The translations under genes and the position numbers were made by a program. 64,000 nucleotides of DNA from Brevirhabdus sp. (GTDB taxonomy: Bacteria > Pseudomonadota > Alphaproteobacteria > Rhodobacterales > Rhodobacteraceae): contig JAGXFH010000008.1 of assembly GCA_024637315.1 (NCBI GenBank), positions 1-64,000 of the forward strand, written 5' to 3'. The stretch's first letter is position 1, and each line of letters opens with the position of its first letter. Shown piece by piece: positions 9,062 through 57,567 of the stretch. The notes beneath the pieces are model-generated. The model saw only the letters and a list, made by a program, of their open reading frames with translations. It did no database searches and was not told the DNA's origin.

Positions 9062-9119
9062 CGGCACGGCCTCCGGCGGGGATACTTGTGCTGAAAAGAA
9101 ACCAGTGGAAACAAAACGA

Positions 9120-9143
9120 CGACGCTCTGGGAGGAGAGCGTCG
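9120..9143 (-). terminator. Hairpin, probable terminator for the DUF1127 gene
   Basis: A perfect 9-bp stem, CGACGCTCT (9120-9128) with AGAGCGTCG (9135-9143), has loop GGGAGG. Read on the minus strand it is followed by TCGTTTTGTTT, a broken T-tract. It lies about 140 nt beyond the DUF1127 stop codon; no other minus-strand gene needs it. Confidence 0.55.
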
Positions 9144-9280
9144 CCGTTCCGTTGGCGGATGCTTTGGGGGAGGACCGCCGCATCCGTTTTGGTATTTGTG
9201 CGGCGACATCAGGGAGGAGGTTGATGCCGCCGCTCTTTACAGGCGTCCCGCGGGAGGAGCGGGTTGCCTGATCCGAATTC

Positions 9281-9496
9281 CTATTTGCCGTATGCGGCTT
9301 CGCGAGCGATCGAAGAGATCATCGAGCGGTGAATGCCGAGATCGTCCAGTTCGCGAGCCGTAAGGCGGCTGAGTTCCACGACGGTCTGGCGATACACGCG
9401 ATACTGGCTGTAGCGCGCGGCGATGCCTCGGGCATAAGCCGACATCCGGTCGACGATGCCAGCATTGATGCTGCGGGTTTCAGTTGCGAATGCCAT
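9281..9496 (-). CDS. DUF1127 domain-containing small protein
   Basis: This 71-aa basic protein ends with the DUF1127 signature: YRQTVVELSRLTARELDDLGIHRS followed by MISSIAREAAYGK. DUF1127 proteins are short, abundant in Rhodobacterales and Rhizobiales, and often induced by stress or low nutrients; work on related small proteins points to RNA turnover or phosphate-related regulation, but no function can be assigned here. The ATG is preceded by AAGAGGC. The gene stands alone between the Lrp relic and the regulatory region of the dcw cluster, with its own hairpin downstream and repeated AATGCTGC sequences upstream (9571, 9593). Confidence 0.88.
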   Translation of the reverse strand: MAFATETRSINAGIVDRMSAYARGIAARYSQYRVYRQTVVELSRLTARELDDLGIHRSMISSIAREAAYGK

Positions 9497-9859: not shown

Positions 9860-9909
9860 TGGGAAAATTCACAGTGGTCGCAAATTTCGTGGGAATTTGT
9901 GGGAATTTC
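9860..9909 (+). promoter_or_regulatory. Candidate MraZ boxes (plus orientation)
   Basis: TGGGAATTTG (9890-9899) and TGGGAATTTC (9900-9909) are adjacent decamers that match the MraZ box TGGGN-N5. Further TGGGA (9860) and TGGTC (9875) lie 30 and 15 bp before the first of these. MraZ, encoded 430 bp downstream, binds such phased repeats to autoregulate the dcw operon. Confidence 0.5.
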
Positions 9910-10040: not shown

Positions 10041-10090
10041 TTCCATATTTTTCTGTTGATTTCCATGAATTCCCATGGCATCCCTGTTCA
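10041..10090 (-). promoter_or_regulatory. Five phased decamers, candidate MraZ boxes (minus orientation)
   Basis: Units starting exactly every 10 bp read TTCCATATTT, TTCTGTTGAT, TTCCATGAAT, TCCCATGGCA and TCCCTGTTCA. On the minus strand four of the five contain a TGGRA or GGGA core. The 10-bp period and the core match MraZ boxes. They lie 250-300 bp before the mraZ start. Confidence 0.5.
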
Positions 10091-10254
10091 CACGATGAGG
10101 ACGGGCAAAACGAGGCGACAAGACCTCAAAACTCCCAAGTCAGGTTTCATACAGGCACCCGCTTTCATCGAACCAAGAGATCCGGCGCGCGAGCGAGCAG
10201 ACATCCCCCCAGGTGGCGCGCGCAGTCGGACAAACCCCAGAAATGGGACGAGGG

Positions 10255-10295
10255 CGGCGGGTTGATCAGTGGCAGCAGATCAACCCGCCGTTTCC
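10255..10295 (+). promoter_or_regulatory. Long perfect hairpin in the mraZ leader (attenuator/terminator candidate)
   Basis: CGGCGGGTTGATC (10255-10267) pairs perfectly with GATCAACCCGCCG (10278-10290) around a 10-nt loop, and TTTCC follows. It lies 45 bp before the mraZ start codon, so any transcript starting at or upstream of the repeat clusters must read through it. Confidence 0.7.
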
Positions 10296-10339
10296 ATGTC
10301 CGGGGCGGTTGAGGGGCAAGGATAAGGAGCCGCGGGACA

Positions 10340-10843
10340 GTGGCGCGCAGGTTCAGAGGCGAAAGCCAGCACAAGGTCGACGCGAAGGGCAGGGTCTCCA
10401 TCCCCGCCCTGTTTCGCCGTGTGCTCGAGGCCGGCGACCCGGACTGGACAGACGGTCTGCGCCCGCAGCTGGTCATCGTCTATGGCGATCATCGCCGAAA
10501 ATATCTGGAATGCTATACGATAGAGGCGATCGACGAGGTCGATGCCAAGATCAGCAAGATGCCGCGCGGATCGATCGAGCGGCGGATGCTGGAACGGATG
10601 ATCCACGGTCAGTCGCATCCCACCGAGGTCGATGGCGACGGTCGGCTGGTTCTGCCGCAAAAGCTGCGCGAAAAGATCGGGCTGGAAGACGAGGCTTTCT
10701 TTATCGCCTCTGGCGATACGTTCCAGATCTGGAAGCCCGAGACTTACGAGACCGAGGAGGCCTCGAAAACCGAGAAATGGCTGGACGAGCTGCCCGACGA
10801 CTTTGATCCCCTGACCCTGTTGGACAGAGCCGAAGGGGAATAG
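10340..10843 (+). CDS. mraZ: Transcriptional regulator MraZ
   Basis: The 167-aa protein has two AbrB/SpoVT-like halves: HKVDAKGRVSIPALFR (about 11-26) and EVDGDGRLVLPQKLRE. MraZ forms ring oligomers that bind repeated TGGGN boxes and regulate its own dcw operon. The start is a GTG with a good AAGGAG site 16 nt upstream; the MARRFRGES beginning fits the family. A C-terminal acidic tail extends beyond the second half. It opens the dcw cluster and its stop lies 3 nt before rsmH. Confidence 0.95.
   Translation: MARRFRGESQHKVDAKGRVSIPALFRRVLEAGDPDWTDGLRPQLVIVYGDHRRKYLECYTIEAIDEVDAKISKMPRGSIERRMLERMIHGQSHPTEVDGDGRLVLPQKLREKIGLEDEAFFIASGDTFQIWKPETYETEEASKTEKWLDELPDDFDPLTLLDRAEGE

Positions 10844-53906: not shown

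Positions 53907-57567
<3,661 letters not shown>

Follow-up and report, generated by a model that had tools for sequence, protein, structure and literature searches.

In R. sphaeroides, mraZ is preceded by a leader of 268 nt, and a Rho-independent terminator inside this leader releases a 206-nt sRNA, UpsM (RSs0682) (PMC5089854). Termination is partial, with an estimated 99 of 100 transcripts ending at this site and approximately 1% read-through into mraZ, and experiment excluded a promoter closer to mraZ than that of UpsM (PMC5089854). Three reports together describe binding of UpsM to Hfq and its cleavage by RNase E, triggered by the sRNA StsR (PMC5089854, PMC8625941, PMC11354728). As summarized in the two later reports, StsR is induced by RpoHI/RpoHII and pairs with both UpsM and the dcw leader; pairing exposes an RNase E site and dcw mRNA falls (PMC8625941, PMC11354728). 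A long mraZ leader with a terminator is considered special to Rhodobacteraceae (PMC5089854). SreA and SreB, the sRNAs derived from SAM riboswitches of Listeria, are likewise terminated 5' leaders that double as trans-acting sRNAs (PMC5089854). They belong to a different phylum and have SAM as ligand, whereas no ligand is known for the leader analyzed here.

Results

A stable hairpin in the leader of the dcw genes

We analyzed a 64,000-nt stretch of DNA from Brevirhabdus sp. (the window). Upstream of mraZ, two perfectly complementary 13-nt arms (10255–10267 and 10278–10290) enclose a 10-nt loop (10268–10277), exactly as reported in a first-pass annotation of the window. The T-run downstream of the stem is indeed short: just TTT (10291–10293), followed by CCATGT. 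The hairpin ends 49 nt ahead of the mraZ GTG, and mraZ is followed in order by rsmH, ftsL, a penicillin-binding protein at the ftsI position, murE and murF. The hairpin is therefore located in the dcw leader, as had been predicted. The corresponding distance from stem to start codon is 70 nt in R. sphaeroides, and the family median is 57 nt. The elements of the locus are:

10056–10061, plus strand: predicted −35 hexamer TTGATT of the UpsM/dcw promoter, a conserved [AG]TTG[AC]TT-type motif in an alignment of leaders from 183 loci
10062–10078, minus strand: MraZ-box-like repeat in the promoter spacer, TGGGAATTCATGGAA, with a 10-bp period and a conserved CCATGAATTCCCATGG block
10079–10084, plus strand: predicted −10 region CATCCC after a 17-nt spacer, a weak match to consensus; TATCCA or TACCAA in relatives
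10094–10298, plus strand: predicted UpsM sRNA, or terminated dcw leader, approximately 205 nt
10112–10127, plus strand: small conserved hairpin GAGG...CCTC of the 5' domain (RNAalifold consensus, compensatory pairs)
10143–10158, plus strand: unpaired stretch AGGTTTCATACAGGCA, highly conserved, with an identity across the family of 90% or close to it
10181–10234, plus strand: stem-loop R2, whose loop GAGCAGACATCCCCCCAGGTG is near-invariant (in the consensus fold, several pairs persist through base changes)
10255–10290, plus strand: predicted terminator hairpin R4, 13-bp stem and loop AGTGGCAGCA; a G-U/A-U extension spans 10252–10293
10291–10299, plus strand: short U-tract TTTCCATGT, 5 T in the 10 nt past the stem (family mean 6.1)
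10324–10329, plus strand: Shine-Dalgarno-like AAGGAG of mraZ, read from the sequence
10340–10843, plus strand: mraZ, first dcw gene, GTG start (NCBIfam NF001476 MraZ, E = 1e-69)

The RNA fold of the hairpin has an energy of −38.9 kcal/mol (z = −6.1), which none of the shuffles equalled; a slightly shifted stretch over the same hairpin gives z = −6.6. Perfect inverted repeats with arms of 13 bp or more and loops no longer than 15 nt occur at only two places in the 64 kb, the hairpin and 56730–56766. The mean number in 20 Markov-resampled windows is 0.0, so such repeats are not expected to arise here by chance. The second one, with a 15-bp stem and a 7-nt loop, is the strongest in the window. 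We also considered a genomic repeat element and rejected it: a search of the whole genome with a model of the hairpin returned a single strong copy, and the minus-strand echo at the same position is the palindrome itself.

Correspondence to UpsM of R. sphaeroides

For comparison we used a genome of 4.6 Mb in 7 contigs (G051), which we take to be R. sphaeroides, its reaction-centre L protein being 100% identical to the known sequence of that species. The mraZ leader in this genome (L124) contains CGGCGGATCGGGC-AGTGGCAGCC-GCTCGATCCGCCG, the same hairpin and loop. Counting 268 nt back from the mraZ GTG places the UpsM start at GATGAG, and counting 62 nt back places the 3' end 8 nt past the stem, within CTTTCGTT. 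The window shares with R. sphaeroides the gene context, the hairpin, the loop and the R2 stem-loop, as well as the predicted promoter with its MraZ-box-like repeat. The predicted distances agree too, with a 3' end 8 nt past the stem and approximately 205 nt from the start. The stems, GGGTTGATC/GATCAACCC in the window and GGATCGGGC/GCTCGATCC in R. sphaeroides, differ by compensatory substitutions. The U-tract is TTTCCATGT in one and CTTTCGTTT in the other, and the leader open reading frame of the window is not common to R. sphaeroides. It was in R. sphaeroides that experiments showed UpsM to be expressed, bound by Hfq and cleaved by RNase E, whereas the element in the window is known from its sequence. 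Judged by sequence and position, the hairpin is this bacterium's copy of the UpsM terminator, a well-conserved element that has already been described.

The predicted UpsM start, 10094, is the column aligned to the −268 start of R. sphaeroides and may err by a few bases; the predicted end, approximately 10298, is set 8 nt past the stem as in the 206-nt UpsM. The leader can be aligned along its full length, R. sphaeroides included; regions R2–R4 are conserved, and the stem-loop at 10181–10234 corresponds by position to UpsM region R2. Two single-stranded segments, 10143–10158 (AGGTTTCATACAGGCA) and 10196–10216 (GCAGACATCCCCCCAGGTG), are near-invariant, with conservation equal to that of the terminator. 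They are candidate contacts for StsR, Hfq or a protein.

Upstream, similarity to a second species of the genus increases at the predicted −35 (10056). The promoter-like block TTGATT-N17-CATCCC (10056–10084) is conserved in the leaders of the family; a consensus promoter scan found nothing at this block. The same spacer position in R. sphaeroides reads TGGGATTTCATGGGA. TGGG repeats are the known binding motif of MraZ, and from this motif we infer that MraZ would bind the repeat at 10062–10078 and repress by occlusion. Another TGGGAATTTGTGGGA repeat with a 10-bp period lies at 9890–9904, some 200 bp before the point where UpsM is predicted to begin. It is partially retained in the second species of the genus and is possibly a distal MraZ site.

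Farther upstream, the minus strand carries a DUF1127 gene (9281–9496; PF06568, E = 7e-14). In the region 9105–9496 of this strand, hairpins bearing CTCCTCCC-type loops come after the gene, together with a hairpin ending in TTTTGTTTCC. The arrangement looks like ccaF1 with the CcsR1–4 'Cuckoo' sRNAs of R. sphaeroides. The old numbers RSs0680 (CcsR) and RSs0682 (UpsM) are adjacent, which suggests the same neighbourhood in that species.

Conservation and covariation of the stem

The first-pass annotation had proposed aligning the leader in related Rhodobacterales in search of compensatory changes. We collected the regions upstream of mraZ in two sets, the first comprising the second species of the genus and about 110 other genera of Rhodobacteraceae, the second 80 GTDB loci. 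A gapless stem search found a strong hairpin at every one of the 111 loci in the first set and at 76 of the 80 in the second (187 of 191, with some genomes present in both sets). Among the four loci lacking a gapless match, at least one (L155) has the same stem with a bulge. The hairpin is recognizably the same at nearly all loci; at two, L187 and L203, both stem and loop differ.

In the 148 distinct hairpins, 96.4% of the cells are paired, and compensatory, two-sided changes occur in 14 of the 18 pairs. Such changes account for 210 cells, compared with 60 in shuffles and 20–38 in slid structures. The covariation score is 0.296; shuffles give 0.158, and slid versions do not exceed 0.112. Examples of compensatory arms are GGGTTGATC/GATCAACCC, GGATTGGGC/GCTCAATCC and GGATTGAAC/GTTCAATCC. 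The stem is thus near-universal in the family and covaries, which shows that the predicted terminator stem is under selection across Rhodobacteraceae. The first-pass annotation had named absence of the stem from close relatives as grounds for dropping its reading, and the relatives show the opposite. Between the two species of the genus, the conserved block begins around the −35 region and breaks off shortly after the hairpin, as expected for an sRNA unit running from promoter to terminator.

In a class-wide sample of 289 genomes searched with strict filters, under which weak homologues could be missed, strong matches came solely from Rhodobacteraceae. This range agrees with the published restriction of the long terminator leader to the family (PMC5089854). 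Two further matches at class level were weak (E = 5e-4 and 9e-4); MraZ was undetectable at both loci, and we treated them as chance.

Discussion

Very probably, the hairpin corresponds to R4 and acts as Rho-independent terminator for the UpsM of this organism. Transcription would begin near 10094 from a single, MraZ-regulated dcw promoter. Most RNA polymerases would halt just past the hairpin, at approximately 10298, and free an sRNA of about 205 nt, while a minority would continue into mraZ and the dcw genes to supply dcw mRNA. Partial termination would thereby both release UpsM and limit dcw transcription. By analogy with R. sphaeroides, Hfq and the stress and stationary-phase sRNA StsR would bind both the freed sRNA and the leader of read-through transcripts, and StsR binding would expose an RNase E site and lower dcw mRNA. 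The start site, termination, the read-through fraction and control by StsR and RNase E are all inferred for this organism from that analogy, and a start downstream of 10290 is presumably absent here too. The genome encodes Hfq. A gene for StsR was not identified in it, nor did the stretch around 839 kb in the R. sphaeroides chromosome, a site guessed by reading the old sRNA numbers as kilobases, yield a convincing candidate. In three genomes, the complement of the R2 loop turned up no further exact match, one-mismatch matches aside.

Premature termination beside MraZ control, as the first-pass annotation had proposed, thus gains support from homology to UpsM, for which termination was demonstrated in R. 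sphaeroides (PMC5089854). The same identity with the published terminator means that the idea of conditional termination, right in outline, is not new: the supposed extra layer of dcw regulation has been in print since 2016 (PMC5089854).

Termination alone does not explain one feature of the hairpin. Of 183 leaders, 121 have exactly the loop AGTGGCAGCA, and such near-invariance exceeds the needs of a plain terminator. We tentatively raise the possibility that this loop and the R2 loop are bound specifically by a protein, ligand or sRNA that thereby gates termination. A related reading, that leader core and hairpin loop sense a ligand, protein or RNA to switch the terminator in riboswitch-like fashion or by antitermination, with UpsM mainly a by-product, appears unlikely to us. 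The strict conservation of both loops is consistent with it, and for many leaders folding predicts pairing of the left arm with 10150–10180 until the right arm is made. A riboswitch was also proposed for R. sphaeroides in 2016, but the proposal had no experimental support and its authors saw no family-wide conserved refolding of R2–R4 (PMC5089854). Moreover, the bases of the alternative pairing are invariant, so it has no support from covariation, and R4 is far more stable than the alternative folds. A known Rfam family can be rejected: no match to the leader reached a gathering score, and a lax search returned unrelated families alone, far under their cut-offs.

The short U-tract bears on how strongly the predicted UpsM terminator acts. 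A simple consensus terminator scan did not call the site, the U-tract falling under its threshold despite the strong stem, and termination here could therefore be weaker than in R. sphaeroides. Read-through may be higher in this organism, given a U-tract slightly below the family mean. If the tract were too weak for much termination, the very stable stem might serve only for protection or processing, as a 3' end stabilizer or a barrier to RNases. This we regard as very improbable, because the U-tract of R. sphaeroides is similarly broken (CTTTCGTTTC), yet nearly all transcripts are estimated to end there.

The 56-codon open reading frame at 10095–10265 is as first described, with its TGA inside the left arm and no ribosome site. 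The suggestion that its translation affects folding did not hold up. The ATG would fall on the second nucleotide of the predicted transcript, and relatives do not keep the frame: 128 of 183 leaders have an ATG at the aligned position, and the frames that these open vary in length between 5 codons, the value for R. sphaeroides, and 236; the second species of the genus has 198. The peptide has no match in Pfam, and coding selection on the frame is not evident in the leader alignment, which makes translation-dependent folding unlikely. Attenuation by a leader peptide, which the position of the stop codon and a different, weakly translated leader frame in R. sphaeroides might favor, can for these reasons be set aside almost entirely, the latter frame being moreover confined to R. 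sphaeroides according to its authors (PMC5089854).

With the hairpin read as the UpsM terminator, an sRNA studied in one species is extended to an uncharacterized genus, and conservation of the terminator loop offers a cheap handle on how dcw read-through is set. Should the two loops indeed gate termination, the dcw leader of Rhodobacteraceae would be a family-wide regulated switch of cell division, beyond a leaky terminator.
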